The notes under the pieces are model-generated. The model searched no databases and was not told the DNA's origin. It saw only the letters and a program-made list of their open reading frames with translations. The position numbers and the translations under genes are program-made. From positions 1 through 39,334 of the forward strand of contig JABEVD010000018.1 of assembly GCA_013044025.1 (NCBI GenBank): DNA of 39,334 bases, written 5' to 3'. Source of the stretch: Burkholderiales bacterium. GTDB taxonomy: Bacteria; Pseudomonadota; Gammaproteobacteria; Burkholderiales; JABEVD01. Positions 971 through 16,512 of this stretch are shown here, in pieces. Each line of letters begins with the position of its first letter. Position 1 is the stretch's first letter.

Positions 971-2383
971 TCAACAGGGCAGCGAGAGGCGAAAGGATAC
1001 TTCGCCTCGCGGGGAATCCAGGAGGACGAGATCCCCGCCATGGGCTCTTGCGATCTCGCGGGCGAGACTCAGCCCGAGCCCCACCCCGTCCACGTTGCGA
1101 CTGCGGGACGCATCCGTGCGATAGAAGCGCTCGAAGATCTTTTCCCTGGATTCCGGCGCGATGCCGGATGAGGAATTGGATATCTCGACCTGGACGACTT
1201 GCTCCGTTCTTTCCAGTCCGATCCGGATCCATCCGTTTTGCAGATTGTATTTCACCGCGTTGGAAACAAGATTGACGAGGAGCTGGCGCATCAGATCGGC
1301 ATCTGCCCGGATCGTGATTCCTTCCGGCAGTTTCACGGAGACCAGGAGCGCAGGAGCCATCATCCTGGTGTCCTCGACAAGCTCCTCAACCTCACGGGAA
1401 AGATCGAATGGCGTAAGCTGAAGGCGCAGCCTGCCCGCATCCGCCTGGGAAAGCAGCAGCAGCTTGCGCGAAATGGAGGATAAGCGTCTGGCCTCGTCCA
1501 GGATGCTGCCCAGCATCGCCTGCATGGGGGAGCCCGCCTCAACCTGGGAGATTGCCCGCTCGATCTGCCCCTGCAAAATGGTGAGTGGCGTCTTCAATTC
1601 GTGGGAAGCGTCCGCCGAAAAGCGCGAAGCCTGGGTGAAGCTCTTCTCCAGCCGCTCCAGCATCTCGTTGATTCCTTCAGCGAGCACAGCGAATTCCCGG
1701 TCCCGGATCACGGGAAGCCTCTGATCGAGCTTCTGGGCCGAAATCCCGCGGATCGATTGACCGAGTTCCCGCACTGGCTTGAGCGCCCTTCCCGAGAGAA
1801 ACCAGGCGCCCAAGGCGAGGAAGGCGAGCGCAGCCGGGGCGGCCAGCAAAAATCCGTTCCTCACCCTGTCCATTCCCAACCTCATTTCGTCCATGCCGAC
1901 CGCGATCGCGATCCGGGAATGAGGGGTTGCGGCTAGCCCGAATCTCCAGGTGGTGCCGTTCGCGCTCGCCTCATATTTCGCGGTTGCCGGCGGGATCCTG
2001 GGAGGAGGCCTGGAAAAATCCGGAGGCCATGGAGGAAGCTTCGCTTTCGGCCAGGGAAGCTTCGAAGAATCGATCCCGGCAGGCCAATTCCCTGATTCAA
2101 AAACAATCTCGCCGAAACGATTTTCCACCAGCAGCAGGACATGGGCGGGCTCGCGAATTCCGAGCGAGCGGGGCAGGACGTTTTCCGCGAACCGGGCCCA
2201 TTCCGGAGGGGGCAGGAAGCGCATCGATTCCCGCTCCGCGCTCGAGATCAGGTCGGAGTCGATGTCCGCGACCTTGATGTCGTGGACCACCCACCATGCG
2301 TATGCGCCGAATCCGGCCAGAACGGCCCCGGAAAGCGCGGCTGCGAGCAGGGCGAGCCGGATGCGGAAGGATCCCGACTTCAA
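971..2383 (-). CDS. two-component sensor histidine kinase
   Basis: Membrane sensor kinase, about 470 residues, partner of the regulator just upstream. Domains in order: TM1 at about 10-32; a periplasmic sensor of about 140 residues unusually rich in Pro and Trp (segments such as LPWPKAKLPPWPP); TM2 at about 178-198; HAMP; a dimerisation/phosphoacceptor helix with DASHELKTPLT (His about 261); and an ATPase domain with the N box (LVSNAVKYN), DGVGLGLSLA and related G boxes. I place the start at the TTG at 2383-2381, whose last two bases overlap the regulator's TGA (TTGA), with AAGGA just upstream. A frame-open extension to a TTG at 2452 exists but would lie inside the regulator gene. The layout resembles CusS/QseC-type kinases, but the signal cannot be inferred. 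The likely target is the divergent operon starting at 3205. Confidence 0.9.
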   Translation of the reverse strand: MKSGSFRIRLALLAAALSGAVLAGFGAYAWWVVHDIKVADIDSDLISSAERESMRFLPPPEWARFAENVLPRSLGIREPAHVLLLVENRFGEIVFESGNWPAGIDSSKLPWPKAKLPPWPPDFSRPPPRIPPATAKYEASANGTTWRFGLAATPHSRIAIAVGMDEMRLGMDRVRNGFLLAAPAALAFLALGAWFLSGRALKPVRELGQSIRGISAQKLDQRLPVIRDREFAVLAEGINEMLERLEKSFTQASRFSADASHELKTPLTILQGQIERAISQVEAGSPMQAMLGSILDEARRLSSISRKLLLLSQADAGRLRLQLTPFDLSREVEELVEDTRMMAPALLVSVKLPEGITIRADADLMRQLLVNLVSNAVKYNLQNGWIRIGLERTEQVVQVEISNSSSGIAPESREKIFERFYRTDASRSRNVDGVGLGLSLAREIARAHGGDLVLLDSPRGEVSFRLSLPC

Positions 2384-3069
2384 TGTTCCTTGTCCGGATC
2401 GTGATAACGGTAGCCCACGCCGCGAACGCTCTCGATCGGAGATGTTTCGCAACTGGAAATGCCGGCGATCTTTCTGCGGATCCGCTGGATGCAGACGTCG
2501 ACCAGATTGGTGCTGGGATCGAAATCGTATCCCCAGACATGTTCCAGGATCTGGGTTCGGGTGAATACCCTTCCGGGGGAACGCATCAGGTATTCGATCA
2601 GATTGAATTCCCTTCCGGTCAGATCCACCGATTGTCCCGCCCAGGAAGCCTCGCGGCTGATCCTGTCGAGCCTCAGTTCACCCACGCAAAGCAGGTTCTG
2701 CCGCTCCCCTGAAACCCTCCGCAGCATGGCATGAATCCTTGCGATCAATTCCTCCACGAAAAACGGCTTGGCGAGATAATCGTCTGCGCCAAGATTGAGC
2801 CCATCCACCCGGTCATCCAGCTCGTTGCGCGCGGTGAGCAGAATCACCGGGGTGTGGTTCCCGCACCGTCTCAGGCCGGAAAGGATGGAAAGACCGTCCC
2901 TTCCCGGAAGCATGATGTCGAGCACGATTGCATCATATCCTCCTCCTGCTGCGAGCAGGTAACCCTCGTTTCCGTCGCCGCAATGGATGACCGCAATTCC
3001 CCGTTCGCGAAATCCCGCGCACACGAAGTCGGCGATCCTCTGTTCGTCTTCGACCAGCAATATCTTCAT
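2380..3069 (-). CDS. OmpR-family DNA-binding response regulator
   Basis: Protein of 229 residues. The receiver domain (1-115) has the acidic pocket (LLVEDEQ), phospho-acceptor Asp51 (VLDIMLPGRDG), the conserved Thr region (LLTA) and Lys101 (YLAKPF). A C-terminal winged-helix trans_reg_C domain (about 130-225) has the typical LTGREFNLIEYL and RVRGVGYRY-like end (SVRGVGYRYHDP). It is the first gene of a two-gene unit with the overlapping sensor kinase (TTGA). Its ATG at 3069 faces the urea transporter/M23 operon across about 135 bp. That gap contains a palindrome suited to an OmpR-type dimer, so it probably autoregulates and controls the divergent operon. This is inference from position. Confidence 0.93.
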   Translation of the reverse strand: MKILLVEDEQRIADFVCAGFRERGIAVIHCGDGNEGYLLAAGGGYDAIVLDIMLPGRDGLSILSGLRRCGNHTPVILLTARNELDDRVDGLNLGADDYLAKPFFVEELIARIHAMLRRVSGERQNLLCVGELRLDRISREASWAGQSVDLTGREFNLIEYLMRSPGRVFTRTQILEHVWGYDFDPSTNLVDVCIQRIRRKIAGISSCETSPIESVRGVGYRYHDPDKEH

Positions 3070-3204: not shown

Positions 3205-5379
3205 ATGAAGATCCTGAAGCATCACCCCGAAAGGCTTTTCGAAGAACTCCAGCGCGGATACGCATGGGTGGCGCTCCTTCCGTCCCGGAAAGCAGGAATT
3301 CCGCTGGCTCTGTTGACCTTTCTCGATCCCGGATCCGGATTTTCGGGACTGTTCGCTGCGATCTGCGCATGGTATGCCGGGGAAATCGCCGGCGCTGACG
3401 AGGCGGAAAGGCCTGTCTGCGTTTTCAACGGCCTGCTGGTCGGCCTTTTCGTCGGGCATGTCTGGGTTGCAGGATACGGCACGGCAGCGATTTCCCTGCT
3501 CGGCGGGATATTTTCAGGATGGCTCACCGTGGTGCTCGGCCGCCTCGCCGCTTCGCTCGTCCGGCTTCCCGTCCTGAGTCTTCCTTTCACAATCGTTTCC
3601 ATGTTGACCCTGGCAGCGGGGAGCAGCCTGTCTTCCCTGCAGGCGAACCCCTATCATGCCCCGCCTGAGCTTTTCGGCATGAAAGCCGATCATTTCCTCG
3701 CCGCGCTGGGTAACCTCTACTTCATATCCAATCCTGCATACGGAATCCTGGTGATCGCGGTGATTACCTATTTCTCAAGGTATTACATCTTCCTCGCGAT
3801 CGCGGGATATGCCGCCGCCTCCATCTGGCTGAGTTTCCTGGGGGCCGCACCGGAGCACCTCGCCCCCACCGCATGGGACAGCAATGCCATCCTCGCTTCG
3901 ATCCTGGTGGGGGGGCTCCTTTCCTCTCCGTCCCTGCGAACCGCTGCGCTGGCCGTGCTCGCGGCGCTCTTCGCGGCCTGGCTCTCCTTATCCTTCGGCA
4001 GGATCCTGGATTTCGCCCATCTCCTGCCTTTTTCCTCCCCTTTCGTGATCTCTTCCTGGATCGTGCTGTATGCAGTTTTGCGCAACAACAGGATGTCGGC
4101 CAGTTTCAATCTTCTCCTCCCCGATTTTCCGGAACGCTCGCTGGAGCGGGCGCAACTCAGCCTCGCCCGCCTTTGCGAGGCTGGAAGTGTCGCCCTTGCC
4201 GTGCCATTTTCCGGTGAATGGACGGTCTCCCAGGGATTCTCCGGTCAGCACACCCATCGCGGACCGTGGCGCCATGCGCTTGATTTTGTCCTGCTGAAGG
4301 ATGGGCTCAGTTTTTCTGGCAAAGGGAACAGGCTGGAGGATTTTCACTGCTACAACCAGCCGGTCTATTCGCCCTGTTACGGCCAGGTTTGGCGCGTGGT
4401 GAACGACGTTCCGGACAATGAACCCGGCAAGGTCAATATGGATGCGAACTGGGGAAACCATATCCTGCTGCGCGTGCCCGGAGGAAAGCATGTCTTGCTC
4501 GCCCATCTCAGGCCATGGTCCATCGTCCCGGCGCCCGGGTCCTGGGTGAAGCCAGGGGACTTCATCGGTCATTGCGGAAATTCCGGCCGATCACCGCAAC
4601 CCCATCTTCATCTCCATCTCCAGGAAGGGGAAATGATTGGTGCGCCGACTTCCCCCTTCCATCTGGCGAGCGTGCTGATCTCGGAAAATGGAAAGCCACC
4701 ACGCTACGAGCTTTCCGTCGTGCCTGTTCAATCTGCGAGGATTTCCGCTGCGATTTCCGGGGAGGTCAGACCCTTCCATCTATTCGCAGGAAGGGGAATC
4801 CGCTACAGGGTGAGCCGGAACGGCGAACCCGTTGGGGATTGGTCGCTCTTTTGCATGGTGGACGATCTCGGCAGGATGGTCCTGGTCTCGAGCGAAGGGG
4901 GGCGCTCGGTGGCGGAATCGACCTGGGCGGTGTTTTCCTGCTACGAGAGGAACGAGAAATCCGACCTTTTCCTCGACCTCTGGCTCCTCGCCTGCGCCTA
5001 CTCTCCCGCATCCTTCCAGATCGAGCGCTGGGAGGACCGCGCGACTCCGGCGAGACTCCTGCCAATCCGGCTTGCGAAATTCCTTGCCTGCCTGATCTGG
5101 CCATGGATGACCTTCATCGAAAGCCGTCACCTCCGAAAATGGGACGACGAGTCCCAGGGATGGCGCCAGATTGCGGAGCACAGGCAAAGGCATTCCGGAA
5201 TCGGCGCGAAGACCGAGGCGCTCATCCTCCCCCAGAAAGGTTGCACCTTCGTCGGCGCCGAATCGGGGGGAAATCGCTACGCCATGCAGGCAACCAGCCT
5301 CTTCCAGCTCGCAGATGTCGGCGTGCCATCTTGGGAAGAGGAAATCAGAATGTCCAACTTACCAGGAAAATTGCAATGA
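3205..5379 (+). CDS. urea transporter domain fused to M23 metallopeptidase domain
   Basis: Two-part protein, 724 residues from ATG 3205 (a GTG at 3184 would add 7). Residues 1 to about 293 are a polytopic UT-family urea channel with two repeats. Its signature-like sequences are LPVLSLPF (121-128) and LPFSSPF (274-280), and DPGSGFSGLFAA resembles a pore-lining start. Residues about 330-485 form an M23 (LytM/lysostaphin-like) domain with HALDF (His357, Asp360), AHLR (His434) and PHLHLHL (467-471), which are the expected Zn and catalytic positions. The first motif is HxxD rather than the usual HxxxD. The last 240 residues are unassigned, with a weak hydrophobic segment (FLACLIWPWMTF). It is first in a six-gene operon, and its stop overlaps the next ATG. 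UT channels normally end in the cytoplasm, so the location of the peptidase is unclear. Confidence 0.85.
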   Translation: MKILKHHPERLFEELQRGYAWVALLPSRKAGIPLALLTFLDPGSGFSGLFAAICAWYAGEIAGADEAERPVCVFNGLLVGLFVGHVWVAGYGTAAISLLGGIFSGWLTVVLGRLAASLVRLPVLSLPFTIVSMLTLAAGSSLSSLQANPYHAPPELFGMKADHFLAALGNLYFISNPAYGILVIAVITYFSRYYIFLAIAGYAAASIWLSFLGAAPEHLAPTAWDSNAILASILVGGLLSSPSLRTAALAVLAALFAAWLSLSFGRILDFAHLLPFSSPFVISSWIVLYAVLRNNRMSASFNLLLPDFPERSLERAQLSLARLCEAGSVALAVPFSGEWTVSQGFSGQHTHRGPWRHALDFVLLKDGLSFSGKGNRLEDFHCYNQPVYSPCYGQVWRVVNDVPDNEPGKVNMDANWGNHILLRVPGGKHVLLAHLRPWSIVPAPGSWVKPGDFIGHCGNSGRSPQPHLHLHLQEGEMIGAPTSPFHLASVLISENGKPPRYELSVVPVQSARISAAISGEVRPFHLFAGRGIRYRVSRNGEPVGDWSLFCMVDDLGRMVLVSSEGGRSVAESTWAVFSCYERNEKSDLFLDLWLLACAYSPASFQIERWEDRATPARLLPIRLAKFLACLIWPWMTFIESRHLRKWDDESQGWRQIAEHRQRHSGIGAKTEALILPQKGCTFVGAESGGNRYAMQATSLFQLADVGVPSWEEEIRMSNLPGKLQ

Positions 5380-6254
5380 AAATGAAACTTGCCGGTCCGC
5401 TCCTGCTGACCCTCATGAGCATGGGAAAGGCGGAAGCTTCCTCATGGCTCTTCGACGCGAACCCGAGCCTGACCCAGGGAACCTACAGCGGTTCGATTGA
5501 GAGAAGCTCTCTCACGGACAGGGGAATCAAGGTCTCAGCGAGCTATCTCGACCAGGGAGCAATCACCGCCGGCTACAGCCGAACCCTTGTCGCAATGAAG
5601 ACCGCGCCGACAATCGATCAGGACAACTGGCTGCTGTCCGGACACTTCAACCGCTATCTGGATTCAGGCCATGGCAGACTGAGCTTTCGTCTGGACGGAT
5701 ACCGCCTCAACAACAACGACTTTGTCGGACAAACCGGCGGAGTCACCACCATCGCCCCGCAGGTTTCCTGGCTTTCGAACGACGGCATGCTGTATGCAGA
5801 CCTCGGGTACGCCCGCTCCGGCTACCAGAATGCGCTCACTGTCCAGCAATACACACCGACCGCCGGATTCGGCCTGAACGGCGGCAACGACTGGATCCAG
5901 TTTCGCGCATTCCTGATCCGCGGCCTCAATCCCCTGCGTGCCGAAGGAAAATCCGCCACCACCGGGGCGGATGCGAAATGGACTCACTATTTCGCAGCGG
6001 GTTCCCCGCTCAAGCCATCCTCTGTCTCGCTCGGGATTTCTCTGGGCGAGAAGATTTATGCTGTGGACATGGACGCCATGTCGGTCGCAAATCTCGCCGA
6101 CCTGCAGCGGGGCGGGGAAACGGTTGGCCTCGGCTGGAAGATCTCCAGAGACGCGAAACTGTTCGCACTTGCAGGGCAGATGCGCTACACCAACACCCAG
6201 ATCGCCAACGATTACAGGCTCAATGTCGGCTATGTCGACCTTTCTTTCGACTGA
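5376..6254 (+). CDS. predicted outer-membrane beta-barrel protein (YaiO-like)
   Basis: Protein of 292 residues starting at ATG 5376, with AGGA 8 nt upstream and a 4-nt overlap with the fusion gene's stop. A signal peptide (MKMKLAGPLLLTLMSMGKAEA) is followed by repeated amphipathic strands alternating aromatic and polar residues (ASYLDQGAITAGYSR, GRLSFRLDGYRL, LYADLGYARSGY). The chain ends YVDLSFD. There are no Cys and many Gly, Asn and Tyr residues, typical of a bacterial outer-membrane barrel. The C-terminal half looks like the YaiO family, though I am not certain. With the TPR protein that follows it resembles a split YaiO or exopolysaccharide-export pair. Probable role: outer-membrane passage or anchoring for this system. 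Confidence 0.7.
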   Translation: MKMKLAGPLLLTLMSMGKAEASSWLFDANPSLTQGTYSGSIERSSLTDRGIKVSASYLDQGAITAGYSRTLVAMKTAPTIDQDNWLLSGHFNRYLDSGHGRLSFRLDGYRLNNNDFVGQTGGVTTIAPQVSWLSNDGMLYADLGYARSGYQNALTVQQYTPTAGFGLNGGNDWIQFRAFLIRGLNPLRAEGKSATTGADAKWTHYFAAGSPLKPSSVSLGISLGEKIYAVDMDAMSVANLADLQRGGETVGLGWKISRDAKLFALAGQMRYTNTQIANDYRLNVGYVDLSFD

Positions 6255-6265
6255 TAAAGGAGAAA

Positions 6266-6883
6266 ATGATGCACGGAAGACTCAAGGCCGCAGTTCTGGT
6301 CCTCGTCATGATGTCGGGAACCGCTTTCGCAGGGGTAGAAGACTGGCAGAATTCCTATCGTCTGGAAAGGGAAGGCAAATATGCGGACGCTCTCGGCGCG
6401 ATCGCTCCGGTTCCGGCCAACGGGCCGGATGCCGAACTCAAGACGCTGCGCCGCGGCTGGCTGTATTACCTGACAGGAAGCTACAATGAATCGATCCGGG
6501 AATACCGCTACGCGGTGGAGAGAAACCCCCACTCCATCGACGCGCTTCTGGGCGAAACCCTTCCCCTCCTTGCGCAAAAGCGCTGGAGGGCAGCCGAACA
6601 GGTTTCGAAGGATGCGCTCGCGATTTCTCCCAACCATTACACCGCCCTGTTGAGGCTTTCCCAGGCCCTGGAAGGGGAGCGTAACTGGCCCGGCATGGAG
6701 CAGGCCGCTTCCTCCCTGGCCAATCACTATCCTTCGGATGCGACCGCCTTCCTTTACCTCGCCAGGGCCCATGCATGGCAGGGGCATAACGCTGAGGCAG
6801 CCGCGGCCTATCGCGCTGTGCTCGTCCGTTATCCGGATCAGGCTGAAGCCGCCTCCTTTCTTTCCGGAATGAACGGAAAATGA
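6266..6883 (+). CDS. secreted tetratricopeptide-repeat protein
   Basis: Protein of 205 residues. The signal peptide (KAAVLVLVMMSGTAFA, cleavage after AFA) directs it to the periplasm. The mature part is about five TPR-like helical pairs (for example GWLYYLTGSYNESIREYRYA and LYLARAHAWQGHNAEAAAAY). The strong ribosome site AAAGGAG lies just before tandem ATG codons at 6266 and 6269, and spacing favours the second. It follows the barrel gene by 11 nt, and its stop overlaps the decarboxylase start (ATGA). It is presumably a periplasmic scaffold for the barrel or for the M23 domain. TPR-barrel partnerships are common in envelope export systems, but no partner can be proven here. Confidence 0.75.
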   Translation: MMHGRLKAAVLVLVMMSGTAFAGVEDWQNSYRLEREGKYADALGAIAPVPANGPDAELKTLRRGWLYYLTGSYNESIREYRYAVERNPHSIDALLGETLPLLAQKRWRAAEQVSKDALAISPNHYTALLRLSQALEGERNWPGMEQAASSLANHYPSDATAFLYLARAHAWQGHNAEAAAAYRAVLVRYPDQAEAASFLSGMNGK

Positions 6884-9513
6884 ATCGATTCGATCTCAGG
6901 CAGCGGCGCGACGAACTGTGGGAATCCCTCGAGGCATCGGCCAATGCCTCCGCCTTCGATCTCGAAGACTTCTCCCGTTCGCTCAAAGAACTTTATGCTG
7001 TCGACAGGTTCTGGACTTTTCCCGGAAGAGGCGTGCTGTGGCGGCTTACGCATTACCTCGATGAGATGCAGTACACGCTGATCGCACAGCTCGTGAACAA
7101 TTGCCGGCATTACATGATGCAGGATCGCTACCGCTTCCAGGCCTTCAGTCCCTTCATGACCAATCTGGAATGGCTGGACCGCCCGATGCTGCACGAATCA
7201 GGGAACATGGAAGCGCTGTCCATCCACAAGCCCAGGCCCTATTTCGAGGTGCTGATCGTCCATCCCTGTCCTGACGAATACGAGTTGCTCTATCGCCAGC
7301 ATCTCGCGACCTTCAAATCCCCGCATGACGAATTCATCTACGACATCGTCCTGGTCGATTCGGCCGAGGATGCGCTCACCGCAGTGCTCGCCAATACGGA
7401 CATCCAGGCCTGCATCCATCTGCACCATGTCCCGCCCGGCACCGAAACTTCGGCGCCTCTGTTTGAGCGCTTCACCCGCCCCCAGCTTCTCCACACGCTC
7501 CCGGTGAATTATTCCGAAAGCGTGGAAGTCAATCTGTGCAGGACCATGCGCGCGATCCGACCGGAAATCGACCATTACCTCATCAGCGAGCTGCCCGCAT
7601 CCGAGCTGCCCTTTTCCGTCCGCAACCATTTCGACAGGGTGCTGTTCCATGTCAATCCTTTCCGGGATCTGCACGAAGCGATCATGAACGGCGTGAGAAA
7701 CCGCTTCAGCACCCCGTTTTTCGCTGCGCTTCAGGCCTATGGAAGGCAACCGAAAGGGGTTTTCCATGCCCTGCCTCTTTCCCGCGGCGCCTCGGTCAGA
7801 AATTCTCCGTGGATCCGCGACATGTACGACTATTACGGGGAAAGCGTATTCCGGGTAGAAACCTCCTCTACCCAGGGAGGACTGGATTCTCTGCTCGATC
7901 CGACCGGCGCGATCCTGCAGGCGCACATGAAGGCGGCCGAAGCATTCGGGGCGGATTCCACCTTTTTCGTCACCAACGGTACTTCCACCTCGAACAAGAT
8001 CGTCAATCAGGCGAATCTCCGCCCGGGCGACATCGTGCTGATTTCCGCGGACTGCCACAAGTCGATCCCCTATTCGGTGATGCTGGCAGGCGCATTTCCA
8101 GTTTTCCTGGAGACATGGCCGATCCCTTCCCGCGACCTCTACGGAGGGGTGGAGCTTGCCAGAATCAAGGAAGTGATGCTCGATTTGAAAAAATGCGGTC
8201 GCCTGGAGAAGCTCAGACAAATTTCCCTCACCAGTTCCACTTTCGACGGGCTGATCTATCACTGCGAAAAATTCATGATGGAAATCCTCGCCATCAAGCC
8301 AGACGTCATTTTCCACTGGGACGAGGCGTGGTCGGCCTTTTGCGGGTTCCATCCCCTCTATTACGGACGGACCGCGATGTCCGCTTCGAAAAAGATCCGG
8401 CAAAGGATGCAAGATCCCGCCTACCGGGAATTTCATTCGCAATGGCGAAAGGAATTCGACGCCAACCCGGAAGAAGAGAAATGGGATGGGCCACTCTATC
8501 CGCATCCAGATCTCGTGAAGCTCAGAGTGTATTCGACGCAGTCGACCCACAAGACGCTCTCCGCTTTCCGCCAGGCATCGATGATCCATGTCTCCGACGA
8601 TCTTTTCGATCGGGCGAGTTTCGTCGAGGCCTATCGCATCTACACGTCCACTTCTCCCAATTACCAGATCGTCTCCTCGATGGACATCGCGCGCAGACAG
8701 GCTTCCCTGGAGGGATTTTACCGGGTCAGGGAAGCGATCCTGCTTTCGCTGCAATTGAGGAGAAGGATACGCGAGGAGGAATCCCTGAAACCCTGCTTCG
8801 AACTGCTGACTGACTTGGAAATGGTGCCGGAGCGATTCAGGACTCCTGTGGGGGAAGGAGAGGGGCTGGCCGGATTGTGCTCCGAATGGGGATACTCCGA
8901 TTTCGTGGTCGACCCCACCCGAATCACCCTCGACGTGAGCGGCTGCGGCATCGACGGGAATAATTTCCGCCAGCTCCTGATGAGCCGCTACGACATCCAG
9001 GTCAACAAGACTTCGCGCAACACCGTGCTGTTTCTCGTCAACATCGGCGCAACCCGGGCCACGGTGGATTACCTTTTCCAGGTGCTGATGGAACTGGCAG
9101 CGAGATTCAGGATGGAGCGCAGGCACCACGAGCTGCCGATTTTCAGGGAATCGCTCCCGCCCCTTCCCCGGAAAAGAATCTTCCACCCGGCATTCCTTCC
9201 CTTCGAAGGCGGCGAGGATCCACCCTGCGACATCCGTAGCGCCCATTACCTCGGCGCCGAAGAATATACAACGGAATATCTACCGCCCCCGGAAGCGCTC
9301 GAAGCGGGCAGGGCGGGAGAATTGCAGGTATCTGCAAGCTTCGTCACCCCTTATCCGCCGGGATTCCCGGTACTCGTCCCCGGACAGTTCATCACGCCCG
9401 AAATCCTCGAATATTTCCATCATGCCAGAATTCCGGAAATCCACGGATTCAGTTTCGAAAAGGGATTCAGGGTGTTCCGCAAGGATTATCTCGAACAAGG
9501 AAACCGGAAATGA
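6880..9513 (+). CDS. Orn/Lys/Arg-type PLP decarboxylase, enlarged
   Basis: Fold-type I basic amino-acid decarboxylase of 877 residues. It is expected to convert ornithine, lysine or arginine to putrescine, cadaverine or agmatine plus CO2. Visible motifs: FVTNGTSTSNKIV (PLP phosphate region), ISADCHKS, HWDEAW (Asp for the pyridine N), and STQSTHKTL with the Schiff-base Lys at 558. The C-terminal domain has FVTPYPPGFPVLVPGQ. Family members are usually 710-780 residues with the PLP Lys near 370-390. Here about 170-190 extra residues precede it, made of an all-helical N-terminus (1-110) plus about 45 residues inserted between HWDEAW and the Lys. Substrate cannot be read from sequence. It overlaps the preceding and following genes by 4 nt. 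Confidence 0.9.
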   Translation: MNRFDLRQRRDELWESLEASANASAFDLEDFSRSLKELYAVDRFWTFPGRGVLWRLTHYLDEMQYTLIAQLVNNCRHYMMQDRYRFQAFSPFMTNLEWLDRPMLHESGNMEALSIHKPRPYFEVLIVHPCPDEYELLYRQHLATFKSPHDEFIYDIVLVDSAEDALTAVLANTDIQACIHLHHVPPGTETSAPLFERFTRPQLLHTLPVNYSESVEVNLCRTMRAIRPEIDHYLISELPASELPFSVRNHFDRVLFHVNPFRDLHEAIMNGVRNRFSTPFFAALQAYGRQPKGVFHALPLSRGASVRNSPWIRDMYDYYGESVFRVETSSTQGGLDSLLDPTGAILQAHMKAAEAFGADSTFFVTNGTSTSNKIVNQANLRPGDIVLISADCHKSIPYSVMLAGAFPVFLETWPIPSRDLYGGVELARIKEVMLDLKKCGRLEKLRQISLTSSTFDGLIYHCEKFMMEILAIKPDVIFHWDEAWSAFCGFHPLYYGRTAMSASKKIRQRMQDPAYREFHSQWRKEFDANPEEEKWDGPLYPHPDLVKLRVYSTQSTHKTLSAFRQASMIHVSDDLFDRASFVEAYRIYTSTSPNYQIVSSMDIARRQASLEGFYRVREAILLSLQLRRRIREEESLKPCFELLTDLEMVPERFRTPVGEGEGLAGLCSEWGYSDFVVDPTRITLDVSGCGIDGNNFRQLLMSRYDIQVNKTSRNTVLFLVNIGATRATVDYLFQVLMELAARFRMERRHHELPIFRESLPPLPRKRIFHPAFLPFEGGEDPPCDIRSAHYLGAEEYTTEYLPPPEALEAGRAGELQVSASFVTPYPPGFPVLVPGQFITPEILEYFHHARIPEIHGFSFEKGFRVFRKDYLEQGNRK

Positions 9514-10973
9514 CCAAAATTCTTCGCTCCCTGTCGGACATACGCAATCACTTCTCGCAGAACGAAATTCCCCATTATTTCATCAGCGCTAGCAACTTCA
9601 ACATGATGGGCATGCACGAATGGGTGAAAGGCTGGAAGAACGTCACCCTGATCGACAGCTTCGACGGAAAACATCCACATCTGCATGCGGTCCCTTCCAG
9701 GAAGGCTTTCGACAGCATCCAGGAAATCGATCTGCATTTGCTGCAGAACGGGCCATTCGCATCCCTCCAGGGAGAACGCAAAGGTCGGGCGATTTTCCTG
9801 TTTTTCGACGAGGAGGTGGAAGCGCTCTGCGAAAGGCTGGGCCTCGAAATTCTGCTCCCCCCTCACCGGCTGGTGCACGAGATGGACAGCAAGATCGTCA
9901 CCACGGAAATCGGCAATCAGGCCGGGGTGAAGAGCGTTCCCAACGTGCTGGCCAAAGTGGGCTGTTTCGAGGAGCTCGAAAGAGTCGCCTCCGGTCTGGG
10001 AAGAGATTGGGTAGTGCAATCCGCTTATGGGGATTCCGGGAAAACCACCTTTTTCATTTCAGACAGAGGGGACTTCGACGAGGCTGCATCCCGGATCGCG
10101 AAGGAGGAAAAGGTCAAGGTGATGCGCCGCATCTCCTGCACCGGCACCGCGATCGAGGCCTGCGCCACGCGCTGGGGGACTTTCGTCGGTCCGCTCATGA
10201 CAGAACTCATCGGCGTTCCGCAACTGACCCCCTATCCCGGGGGGTGGTGCGGAAACGAACTGTACGAATCCGCTTTCTCCCCGGAAATACGCAGACTCGT
10301 GCTGGAAAAGACCAGGGCGATGGGAGATGCGCTGTACCGAAGGGGCTACCGTGGATATTTCGAACTGGATTTCCTCATCGATCGCGGTGACGGGGAAGTA
10401 TATCTTGGCGAACTCAATTCCAGGATCACCGGAATTAGCGCCATGACCAATCTTTCCGATTTCTGTACGGAAAACATCCCTCTTTTCCTTTTTCACCTCC
10501 TCGAATTCGACCGGGAAGTTGAACTGGAAATCGATGCGGACGCCTTCAATGAGGCCGTGCTTCACGCCGGAGCCTCCGGAGTCTCCTCTCAGGCGATCCT
10601 GAAATACACCGACGAATCCCTGAAAATCGTTACTTCCGCTCCACAATCCGTGGTCTATTCCATGGACGATGCGGGCAGGATGGTCTTCAGGAAAGCGGGT
10701 TGGCATCGTCGGGACGCGCTCGGCGAGGACGAAGCGTATCTCCTTCGCATCATGGAGCCGGGGGAATATGTCTATGAGGGGGCGGATCTCGCCATCCTGT
10801 TCCTGAACCGGGTGATCGGAAACGGAGAGGGCGGACTGAACCTGCATGGGGAGAAATGGATTTCCGCACTGCAAGAATCCTTCGAATACAGGAATCTCCG
10901 TCAGGAAGAGCGATCCCTGGTCGAATTCATCAACCATCCGGCCGGCATCAAGAGCGGGGGAAGAAGATCGTGA
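9510..10973 (+). CDS. ATP-grasp family ligase (carboxylate-amine/biotin-carboxylase-like)
   Basis: Protein of 487 residues. An N-terminal pre-ATP-grasp domain (about 1-120) is followed by an ATP-grasp fold. WVVQSAYGDSGKTTFF (167-182) is the nucleotide-binding loop, ELDF (285-288) and ELNSRITG (301-308) are the Mg/ATP acidic and Asn/Arg residues, and the remaining ~170 residues form a C-terminal extension. Such enzymes activate a carboxylate as acyl phosphate and join it to an amine or thiol. Relatives are often labelled biotin carboxylase, but no biotin-carboxyl-carrier or carboxyltransferase gene is near. Placed between an amine-producing decarboxylase and an acyltransferase, an amide-forming role is the natural inference. 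It overlaps the decarboxylase by 4 nt and the next gene by 1 nt. Confidence 0.8.
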   Translation: MTKILRSLSDIRNHFSQNEIPHYFISASNFNMMGMHEWVKGWKNVTLIDSFDGKHPHLHAVPSRKAFDSIQEIDLHLLQNGPFASLQGERKGRAIFLFFDEEVEALCERLGLEILLPPHRLVHEMDSKIVTTEIGNQAGVKSVPNVLAKVGCFEELERVASGLGRDWVVQSAYGDSGKTTFFISDRGDFDEAASRIAKEEKVKVMRRISCTGTAIEACATRWGTFVGPLMTELIGVPQLTPYPGGWCGNELYESAFSPEIRRLVLEKTRAMGDALYRRGYRGYFELDFLIDRGDGEVYLGELNSRITGISAMTNLSDFCTENIPLFLFHLLEFDREVELEIDADAFNEAVLHAGASGVSSQAILKYTDESLKIVTSAPQSVVYSMDDAGRMVFRKAGWHRRDALGEDEAYLLRIMEPGEYVYEGADLAILFLNRVIGNGEGGLNLHGEKWISALQESFEYRNLRQEERSLVEFINHPAGIKSGGRRS

Positions 10974-11884
10974 TGAAATCATTCCATTCCGTCGAGGAAA
11001 CCTTTCCGGGGAAGAAGTGGCTGGAGCATTTCCATGCGGCGCTTCCCGCCTATCGGAGCTGGTTTGCAAGGGACAGGGAGCGTCCTGGATTGCAGGAATG
11101 CGTGGATGCACTCGAACGGCACATGCCAGAGCTCGTGCCGATCTGGAAACATCTCGTCGCCATTTCGGGCGCTGACGAGAACGATGCCCGAATGCTTACC
11201 TTCTATTGTCCGCCACCAAACCTTTCCGGTTGTTCGCAGGCGGTCTGGACCCGTTATACGCCGACCCTGGTGAGGAATTACGACTATGCGCCTGAGTATT
11301 GCGAAGGCAGGATCATGAAGACTCGCTGGCACAATCAGGAAGTCATCGCCGCAACGGATTGCCTGTGGGGAGTGCTCGACGGAATGAACCAGCACGGACT
11401 TTCGGTTTCCCTCGCTTTCGGCGGGAAGACTTGCGTCACCGAGGGATTCGGCGTCCCTCTCATCCTGCGCTACGTTCTGGAATTCTGCACCGATGTGGAC
11501 GAGGCGGTGAAAGTGCTTTGCCGGGTCCCGGCGCACATGGCCTACAACATCACCCTGCTCGATGCCTTCGGCCAGGTGAGAACGGTCGAGCTCACTCCCT
11601 TTTCCAGGCCGAACGTCACCTACAAGGCGCTCGCGGTCAACCACCAGGGTGATTTCGAGATCACCAATTACGCCATGTTCTCCCGCTCGTTCGAACGACA
11701 GCAGTTCCTGATCGGCAAGCTGACCGATCCCTTGATCAGCATCGAATCCTTCGTCAACGCATTCGAATTCAGGCCGCTCTTTTCCTCGAATTATTCGCAG
11801 GGATTCGGCACGCTGTACACGGCGATCTACAATCCGCGGTTGCGTGCGATGGAATACCGCTGGCCGAATCAGGCCAGGATGTAA
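10973..11884 (+). CDS. C45-family autoproteolytic acyltransferase/hydrolase (Ntn fold)
   Basis: Protein of 303 residues from ATG 10973 (a GTG at 10970 is also possible). It resembles acyl-CoA:6-aminopenicillanate acyltransferase (IAT) and the C45 peptidases. The sequence SGCSQAVWTRYTPTLVRNYDY holds the probable autocatalytic Cys87, followed by the conserved RNYD. The preceding 86 residues would be the cleaved pro-segment. Family members transfer or hydrolyse acyl groups on amines and amides. The TAA at 11882-11884 is followed by 16 in-frame codons (QSFAFFEEYEVLVELR) that look like the usual C-terminus of this family, ending at TGA 11935. The gene may therefore be truncated by a nonsense change, or read through. 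It is last in the operon and convergent with the DUF2059 gene. Confidence 0.8.
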   Translation: MKSFHSVEETFPGKKWLEHFHAALPAYRSWFARDRERPGLQECVDALERHMPELVPIWKHLVAISGADENDARMLTFYCPPPNLSGCSQAVWTRYTPTLVRNYDYAPEYCEGRIMKTRWHNQEVIAATDCLWGVLDGMNQHGLSVSLAFGGKTCVTEGFGVPLILRYVLEFCTDVDEAVKVLCRVPAHMAYNITLLDAFGQVRTVELTPFSRPNVTYKALAVNHQGDFEITNYAMFSRSFERQQFLIGKLTDPLISIESFVNAFEFRPLFSSNYSQGFGTLYTAIYNPRLRAMEYRWPNQARM

Positions 11885-14594: not shown

Positions 14595-15011
14595 ATGAAA
14601 GCGCGAGTCAAGTGGATCGAGAACATGAGCTTCGTGGGCGAGACCGCGAGCGGACATGCCGTGGTAATGGACGGATCTCCCGACATCGGAGGAAGGAATC
14701 TCGGGCCGCGCCCGATGGAAATGCTGCTCCTGGGAGCGGGCGGATGCACTTCGATCGATGTCGTGATGATCCTGAAGAAGGGACGTCAGCAGATCACCGA
14801 CTGCGCAGTGGAGATCGAGGCGGAGCGCGCCGGCGAGGACCCGAAGGTGTTCACGAAGCTGCATTTCCATTTCATTGTGACCGGAAAGGGACTGAACCCC
14901 GTCCAGGTGGAGCGCGCCATCCATCTTTCCGCGGAGAAATACTGCTCCGCCACCATCATGCTCGGCAAGACCGCGGAAGTCACCCACGACTTCGAAATCG
15001 TGGAAGGCTAG
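14595..15011 (+). CDS. OsmC/YhfA-family peroxide-reducing protein
   Basis: Protein of 138 residues of the OsmC/Ohr superfamily, YhfA-like subgroup. The two redox-active cysteines expected for the family are present: one in LLGAGGCTSIDVV (about residue 51) and one in SAEKYCSATIML (about 117). These proteins reduce organic hydroperoxides. The exact substrate of the YhfA group is not established. It is preceded by GGGAGA and an inverted repeat. The last 4 nt overlap the bioD stop on the opposite strand, so the two genes converge with no terminator between them. Confidence 0.9.
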   Translation: MKARVKWIENMSFVGETASGHAVVMDGSPDIGGRNLGPRPMEMLLLGAGGCTSIDVVMILKKGRQQITDCAVEIEAERAGEDPKVFTKLHFHFIVTGKGLNPVQVERAIHLSAEKYCSATIMLGKTAEVTHDFEIVEG

Positions 15012-15643
15012 AGCTTCGAAAGATCCAGAAAACGCGCCGCCTCATCGGGGGAGACCCCGTGAGGCAGGATGCCGAGAAGGGGCGCTTCCTTCCTCCCCGC
15101 AAGATAGTCGATGTTCTCGTCGAAATAACTCATTTCCGGATCGATGCGGTTGGCGATCCAGCCGGCGATGGGCAGGCCGCAGCTTCTGATCGCTGCAAAA
15201 GTGAGGAGAGCGTGACTGATGCAGCCTAGCCTCATCCCGACCACCACGATCACCGGAAGGGAAAGCCTTTTCGCCAGATCCGAAACGAGTTCCCGTTCGT
15301 TGAGCGGAACGAGAAACCCGCCCACGCCTTCCACGATCACCACGTCCGAGCGGATTTCGCCATAGGCTTTCGCGATTCTTTCCGTTTCGATCCCGATTCC
15401 CTCGATTCCCGCCGCGATGTGCGGAGAGGCGGGCGTTTTCAGCGGATAGGGATTCGCAAGCCGCGCCGGCGCCGGAATCGAGCTTGCCCGCTCAAGCCAT
15501 TGCGCATCGTCTCCGCCCGCCGAGACGCACTTCATTCCGGCAGCGGATTTCCCGGATGCGGAAAATGCGTGCAGCAGCGCGCAACTCGCGAAAGTCTTGC
15601 CGATTCCGGTGTCGGTTCCGGTGACGAAAAAGCCCTTCTTCAT
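15008..15643 (-). CDS. bioD: dethiobiotin synthetase
   Basis: ATP-dependent carboxylation and ring closure of 7,8-diaminopelargonate (DAPA) to dethiobiotin. The protein is 211 residues. The P-loop GTDTGIGKTFASCALL lies at the N-terminus, with EGVGGFLVPLNE (Mg/ATP contact) in the middle. I use the ATG at 15643, which overlaps the bioC stop (ATGA); an upstream open extension in frame is only the shadow of bioC. It is the last gene of the bioB-F-H-C-D operon. Confidence 0.95.
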   Translation of the reverse strand: MKKGFFVTGTDTGIGKTFASCALLHAFSASGKSAAGMKCVSAGGDDAQWLERASSIPAPARLANPYPLKTPASPHIAAGIEGIGIETERIAKAYGEIRSDVVIVEGVGGFLVPLNERELVSDLAKRLSLPVIVVVGMRLGCISHALLTFAAIRSCGLPIAGWIANRIDPEMSYFDENIDYLAGRKEAPLLGILPHGVSPDEAARFLDLSKL

Positions 15644-16512
15644 TTCAGCCTCTTTTCGAACCGGACGATGCCGCTTCCATCCGGAAGCTTGTTCGGCTGC
15701 GCTTTCCAGGCATGGCCGTATACGACCTCGAAGGTGGCGGGGAGCAATCCGTCTTTCCTCATCCTTTCTGAGCTGTCCACCACCCTTGCCCATGCATTCT
15801 TGCCGAATAGCCCGCGCGGCCTGCCGATCATCGCGTTGTGCGCGCCGATCGCCTTCAGGTCCATCATCACCGATTTCACGTCCGAATAGGTGAGGGTGAA
15901 ATTTTCCATGTCGAGGACAGGATTGGAAAAGCCGGCCCGGATCAGCGCATCCCCGATGTCGTGCATGTCGATGAAGCGGTTGACATGAACATGGCCGTCC
16001 ATTCCGGAAAAAGCGCTGCGCAACTCCTTCAGGGTGTCCGGCCCGAAAGTGCTGAACATGAGGAGCCCGTCCACTTCCAGCACCCGATGGAATCCGCAAA
16101 GCGCTGCATCGAGGTCGTCGCACCACTGCAATGCGAGATTCGACCAGACCATGCCGAAGCTGGAAGATTTGAGCGGCAGGCGCTCGATGTCGCCGCAAAC
16201 CTGCAGGGGAGATTCCGCAAAGGGCTTTTTCCACCAGGGAACTTCCGGCCTGGACTGCATCAGCATCGAGGGAGCAAGGTCGAGTTCGAACAGCGCTGCC
16301 TGTGGAAAGCGCGCGGAAAGGTCGCGCTTTCCCTTGCCCGTCCCGGAACCCGCATCGAGGATCCTGCCCGGATCCACTTTCACATAGTCGAGCCTCGAAA
16401 CCATGCGCTCGCCCACTTCCCTTTGCAGCACGGCCGCAGCGTCGTAGCTCTGCGCCGCCCGATCGAAGGCCCGCCTCACCAGGCGCTTTTCGTTCCTGTA
16501 TTCATCTTCCAT
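15640..16512 (-). CDS. bioC: malonyl-ACP O-methyltransferase
   Basis: SAM-dependent methyltransferase that caps malonyl-ACP to start pimeloyl synthesis. It has 290 residues from ATG 16512 (an adjacent ATG at 16515 is equally possible). Motif I is ILDAGSGTGKGK, and later LAPSML and WSNLALQWCDDLDAAL match BioC proteins. The N-terminus VRRAFDRAAQSYDAAAVLQ is the family signature. The start lies inside the end of bioH (about 11-14 nt overlap), with AGGA upstream. The stop overlaps the bioD start. Confidence 0.94.
   Translation of the reverse strand: MEDEYRNEKRLVRRAFDRAAQSYDAAAVLQREVGERMVSRLDYVKVDPGRILDAGSGTGKGKRDLSARFPQAALFELDLAPSMLMQSRPEVPWWKKPFAESPLQVCGDIERLPLKSSSFGMVWSNLALQWCDDLDAALCGFHRVLEVDGLLMFSTFGPDTLKELRSAFSGMDGHVHVNRFIDMHDIGDALIRAGFSNPVLDMENFTLTYSDVKSVMMDLKAIGAHNAMIGRPRGLFGKNAWARVVDSSERMRKDGLLPATFEVVYGHAWKAQPNKLPDGSGIVRFEKRLK

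Follow-up and report, generated by a model that had tools for sequence, protein, structure and literature searches.

A six-gene operon beside a two-component system

The window, by which we mean the whole analysed stretch of 39,334 nt, comes from a draft genome assembly of a Burkholderiales bacterium (2.56 Mb, 88% complete). ORF calls confirmed six plus-strand ORFs at 3205-11884, encoding a fusion of a urea transporter-type (UT) channel to an M23 domain (UT-M23), an outer-membrane barrel, a TPR protein, a decarboxylase, an ATP-grasp ligase and a C45 enzyme (Table 1). A first-pass annotation made from the sequence had described six co-directed genes with tight junctions, and the ORF coordinates bear this out: 4-nt overlaps join UT-M23 to the barrel, the TPR gene to the decarboxylase and the decarboxylase to the ligase, 11 nt separate the barrel from the TPR gene, and ligase and C45 overlap by 1 nt if the latter starts at its ATG (10973) or by 4 nt from an alternative GTG (10970). 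Its domain assignments for UT, M23, TPR, decarboxylase, ATP-grasp and C45 were matched by Pfam and NCBIfam models.

The two-component control that had been placed next to the operon is present as a divergent pair of OmpR-type regulator and histidine kinase (971-3069), and such a system also adjoins related loci described below (L054-L056, L058, L059, L018, L020, L021). The nearest NCBIfam model of the kinase is the heavy-metal sensor kinase subfamily, with a score below its cut-off. A search for a sigma-70-like promoter upstream of UT-M23, the first gene, found none.

Elsewhere in the window, a 408-aa ORF on the minus strand (15008-16234) adjoins BioB- and BioF-like genes and has a BioD-type AAA_26 domain confined to residues 200-392. 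Its residues 1-200 have no Pfam match at 1e-8, consistent with either a fusion or an early start.

Table 1 Genes of the operon and of the adjoining two-component system in the window
Feature	Coordinates	Strand	Description
Sensor histidine kinase	971..2383	-	HAMP, HisKA, HATPase; start approximate
OmpR-type response regulator	2380..3069	-	Divergent from operon
UT-M23 fusion	3205..5379	+	UT-fold channel (residues 15-290) and M23/LytM domain
Outer-membrane barrel protein	5376..6254	+	Signal peptide; 14-strand OmpG-like model; no Pfam family
TPR protein	6266..6883	+	Exported; TPR domain match (Pfam/NCBIfam)
Decarboxylase	6880..9513	+	877 aa; fold-I PLP; Rv2531c family
ATP-grasp ligase	9510..10973	+	PRK06524-like profile match
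C45 Ntn hydrolase/acyltransferase	10973..11884	+	AAT/C45, NF040521

UT-M23 is linked to a decarboxylase and a ligase across genomes

Using UT-M23 as the anchor, as the first-pass annotation had proposed, we obtained another 41 loci whose flanks could be read (L018-L028, L030, L031, L164-L191) from genome samples dominated by draft assemblies. One of them, L164, agrees with L057 in the identity and spacing of every gene, and the two are probably one contig. A decarboxylase gene was present in 42/42 loci (the window and the 41), and an ATP-grasp gene at every locus where the contig reaches, that of L027 ending first. The complete order of the window (UT-M23, barrel, TPR, decarboxylase, ATP-grasp, C45) is repeated in L054, L055, L056 (Sideroxydans) and L057, with variant orders in L058-L064 and L097. 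The repeated order and the 42/42 decarboxylase linkage rule out a chance neighbourhood and uphold the proposed association. UT-M23 is absent from five genomes of the same genus (G404, G448, G489, G527, G562; 95-99% complete), so the operon is accessory in the window's genus. Matches to M23 only (L032, L193) or to UT only (L192) were set aside as partial matches rather than fusions; these separate relatives of the two halves are possible sources of the fused protein.

A genome scan with the ATP-grasp gene as anchor returned 80 loci, and decarboxylase, ATP-grasp and C45 occur together in 77 of them. At the three exceptions no decarboxylase was found (L094), C45 is missing (L097), or no C45 was seen on a contig that nearly ends (L118). 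By their record titles, the loci with this trio belong to Pseudomonadota, Bacteroidota, Myxococcota, Planctomycetota, Gemmatimonadota, Bacillota and Candidatus Eisenbacteria, although some records are metagenome bins whose names (e.g. 'Bordetella parapertussis', 'Klebsiella pneumoniae') may not hold. The view of the six genes as a single set therefore holds in part: they form a conserved functional unit, but this unit is made up of two separable modules, and the enzyme trio lacks the envelope module in most loci.

Apart from UT-M23, the trio keeps different company. Among non-UT trio loci of at least 15 kb, 58/59 carry a carbon-nitrogen hydrolase, GABA aminotransferase, aldehyde dehydrogenase or agmatinase, whereas the same genes occur at 0/12 UT-linked loci of that length and at none of the 15 UT-linked loci examined. 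This contrast (Fisher p 1e-12, with loci counted as independent despite shared ancestry) suggests that the trio serves the catabolism of amines at one kind of locus and belongs to an envelope-linked system at the other. The apparent amine-catabolic clusters are found in roseobacters, Halomonadaceae, Myxococcota and others (L044-L053, L068-L133), and no literature description of the trio in such clusters was found. Two loci carry two C45 genes each, in tandem in L049 (10571-13062) and on opposite strands in L105 (2596-4578).

Two enzyme sets with non-homologous decarboxylases alternate beside one channel

The enzymes next to UT-M23 come in two versions. The window-type set consists of an Rv2531c-type decarboxylase, a PRK06524-type ATP-grasp and C45; the alternative combines a fold-III decarboxylase (PF02784/PF00278) with a PylC/CarB-like ATP-grasp and a PqqD-like protein. 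The two decarboxylases are non-homologous and differ in fold (PF01276 vs PF02784), and C45 and PqqD are each confined to one version. The alternative pair is present in 37 of the 41 further UT-M23-anchored loci, most of which also have relatives of the barrel and TPR genes, and a PqqD-like gene lies directly upstream of the alternative ATP-grasp in 35/36 loci where the latter is visible. Alternative operons (L018-L028, L031, L165-L180, L183-L191) are carried by many genera of one family (f247). Despite the PqqD-like genes, no conserved short precursor ORF was present in the upstream stretches, and a RiPP precursor was rejected for now.

A tree of 51 UT-M23 proteins, built by a quick method and with some long branches, needs three changes of enzyme set, at least two of them forced by well-supported branches. 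The swap of sets on this tree suggests that the output of decarboxylase and ligase, and not one particular protein, goes with the channel. The UT-linked Rv2531c-type cassettes form one clade (together with some short contigs of unclear status) plus one independent Bacteroidota case (L097).

The closest solved protein to the alternative decarboxylase is the N-citrylornithine decarboxylase FslC of the rhizoferrin pathway (7kh2; 295 bits vs 211 for the next), which acts on amide-linked ornithine. The window decarboxylase has another fold, and the ligase of rhizoferrin synthesis is an NIS synthetase, not an ATP-grasp enzyme. The alternative ligase weakly matches PylC (4ffl, 1.6e-5).

A UT-fold channel with an M23 domain, and an OmpG-like barrel

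The UT domain matches PF03253 at 5e-35 (121 bits vs a cut-off of 25) and the M23 domain PF01551 at 3.5e-10. In the structural model of UT-M23 (pLDDT 81), Foldseek related the UT domain to UT-A, UT-B and dvUT, with a TM-score to target of up to 0.85 and the UT fold spanning the whole domain, and the M23 domain to LytM domains. UT-M23 differs from these SLC14/dvUT urea channels in its fused M23 domain, its altered signature threonines and its lack of a urease context. It scores 49 bits against the Yut equivalog TIGR03441, under the cut-off of 274.6, and the threonines of the LPxxTxPF signature are replaced by Ser in 48/51 proteins, with Ala, Ser, Thr or Val at the second-half site.

The zinc-ligand and catalytic residues of the M23 domain (H351, D360, H434, H467, H469) are invariant in 51/51 sequences. 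No signal peptide was detected, the window protein has no additional segment of strong hydrophobicity, and K+R are concentrated in two places, the N-terminus (mean 2.6) and the stretch directly following the UT domain (mean 5.4). In solved urea transporters, both termini are inside. Together with this topology, the charge pattern predicts a cytoplasmic M23 domain, which probably lies on that side of the inner membrane. The M23 domain as such, named a peptidoglycan-hydrolase domain in the first-pass annotation, is thus intact in its residues, but a hydrolase role is doubtful given its predicted location. We know of no role for a cytoplasmic M23 domain.

The barrel protein was modelled with 14 strands (pLDDT 87), and its top structural match is OmpG; no sequence relatives were found in Pfam or the PDB. 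Its model resembles the monomeric pores OmpG and CymA, with which it shares 11-12% identity and no common Pfam family.

Conserved residues argue against a free basic amino acid as substrate

The decarboxylase matches OKR_DC_1 (PF01276; 234 bits, 2.6e-69), and its PLP lysine K558, H393 and D481 are invariant in 77/77 sequences. Two further positions depart from the characterised enzymes in all 77: N709 aligns with Glu526 of E. coli Lys decarboxylase, also Glu in an Arg decarboxylase, and Q836 stands where Lys and Arg decarboxylases have the Glu of a PGE motif. Glu526 has been proposed to bind the substrate, from docking and cited work (PMC5607190). With Asn at this position throughout, we infer that the distal group of the substrate is not a free ammonium, although loss of the Glu could instead mean a different binding mode. 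Free arginine or ornithine, suggested as the substrate by the first-pass annotation, is accordingly doubtful. Rv2531c of Mycobacterium tuberculosis (PDB 9n0n-9n0p), to which no activity has been assigned in the literature (PMC12910592), is a full-length homologue (605 bits) whose aligned sequence likewise shows Asn for Glu526, as well as PGQ.

The ligase matches NF005096/PRK06524 at 1.8e-155 (518 bits), below the equivalog cut-off of 684, and a biotin carboxylase identity was rejected on this score. Its E301-x-N303-x-R305, D287 and GDSG loop are invariant in 69/69 sequences. PylC is an ATP-grasp ligase that acylates the lysine side-chain amine; the window ligase gave no sequence match to it at the threshold used. 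The pyrrolysine pathway proceeds without a decarboxylase step, whereas the operons described here pair the ligase with a decarboxylase.

The C45 protein matches the C45/AAT family at 1.2e-34 and NF040521 with 155 bits (cut-off 85). Its nucleophile C87 is found in 72/72 sequences with a residue at that position, R101, D104 and R242 are also conserved, and autoproteolysis is predicted at G86-C87.

Interpretation of the operon

Both modules are real, conserved and linked to each other, and their catalytic residues are intact. Our leading explanation, to which we give a probability of about 0.4, is that the two-module operon serves to synthesise a small amide-type amine and to carry it through the inner and outer membranes. 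Much as PylC acylates lysine, the ATP-grasp ligase would couple a diamino acid, through its side-chain amine, to a carboxylic acid at the expense of ATP. The decarboxylase would then strip the alpha-carboxyl from this amide-linked amino acid, in the way that FslC decarboxylates N-citrylornithine, yielding an N-acyl diamine whose acyl group C45 may trim or exchange. The product would cross the inner membrane via the UT-type channel of UT-M23, whose M23 domain, on the cytoplasmic side, may act on the cargo or gate its passage. The OmpG-like barrel would take the product through the outer membrane, and the TPR protein would be its putative periplasmic partner; the divergent two-component system is the likely switch.

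An acylated diamino acid as substrate is supported by the similarity of the alternative decarboxylase to N-citrylornithine decarboxylase and by N709 in the window family. Of the ideas in the first-pass annotation, the one in which the ligase amidates an amine and envelope components transport it best fits the 42/42 linkage, N709, the porin-like barrel and the UT fold. Against it, UT channels pass very small solutes, and the size or charge of an N-acyl diamine may be too great. Somewhat more tentatively, a new amide-linked diamine, supplied by either decarboxylase–ATP-grasp pair, may have its own path across the two membranes in the UT-fold/cytoplasmic-M23 protein and the OmpG-like pore, with a UT cargo other than urea. 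Export is weakly preferred to uptake, because the UT loci lack catabolic enzymes.

Uptake keeps some probability, since the non-UT relatives of the cassette look catabolic. The barrel and UT channel would admit a small amide, C45 and M23 would hydrolyse it, and the other enzymes would feed amine metabolism. Such channels are passive, and the catabolic neighbours of the trio elsewhere are accompanied by TRAP or amino-acid transporters. The non-UT loci follow a logic like that of the gamma-glutamyl-putrescine (Puu) pathway, with its ATP-made amide, aldehyde dehydrogenase, GABA aminotransferase and amide hydrolase, but Puu uses other enzyme families, and Puu-like partner genes are missing from the UT loci. 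ATP-driven ligation would also be an unusual way to start a breakdown route, although Puu uses it, and the UT-linked cassettes form a separate clade with one independent case. We consider uptake less likely than export at the UT loci.

Modification of the envelope, in which M23 would help to attach the amine to peptidoglycan or to cut it off, as for cadaverine in Selenomonas, is improbable: the invariant M23 residues, the structural match to the LytM domains of Csd1/Csd2 and DipM, and the outer-membrane and periplasmic partners in the operon would suit it, but the missing signal peptide, the charge pattern placing both UT ends inside and the lack of a further hydrophobic segment do not.

More improbable still is a metal-controlled operon that makes a small ligand for metals. 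FslC takes part in siderophore synthesis, and the two-component proteins are closest to heavy-metal sensor and regulator models, albeit with scores under cut-off. In genome G250, UT-M23 (L029, 483-13061) lies beside genes for CusB/CusF, an RND pump and a YHS P-type ATPase (Cus-type copper efflux), and a MerR regulator adjoins the enzyme half, which is on a separate contig (L048); these metal genes were seen in a single genome in a non-systematic look at the flanks, and a siderophore-sized ligand is not expected to fit the UT pore.

Sensing or salvage of urea or amine nitrogen through a true urea transporter, the other idea of the first-pass annotation, is very unlikely despite the UT fold and one ureohydrolase-family gene in the window's genome, given the altered signature threonines and the absence of a urease alpha subunit from 11/15 UT-M23 genomes (the window's, at 88% completeness, among them), of urea carboxylase above cut-off from the 12 tested and of ureohydrolases from 8/15 (present in 7/15). 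Urea assimilation is thus not the shared function.

A literature search of partial coverage for the gene combination, UT-M23, the grouping of C45, ATP-grasp and decarboxylase, and a link to iron oxidisers returned nothing relevant, in agreement with the earlier view that the combination matches no described pathway; a 2009 amidoligase survey may show part of the neighbourhood. The operon offers a handle on three orphans: the Rv2531c decarboxylase family, with a solved structure and a member in M. tuberculosis; the PRK06524 ATP-grasp family, which bears the label biotin carboxylase; and UT homologues in bacteria without urease. The swap of enzyme sets around one channel makes the channel cargo directly testable, and Psychromonas aquimarina (L063), by its name a culture-collection strain, is a likely tractable host.
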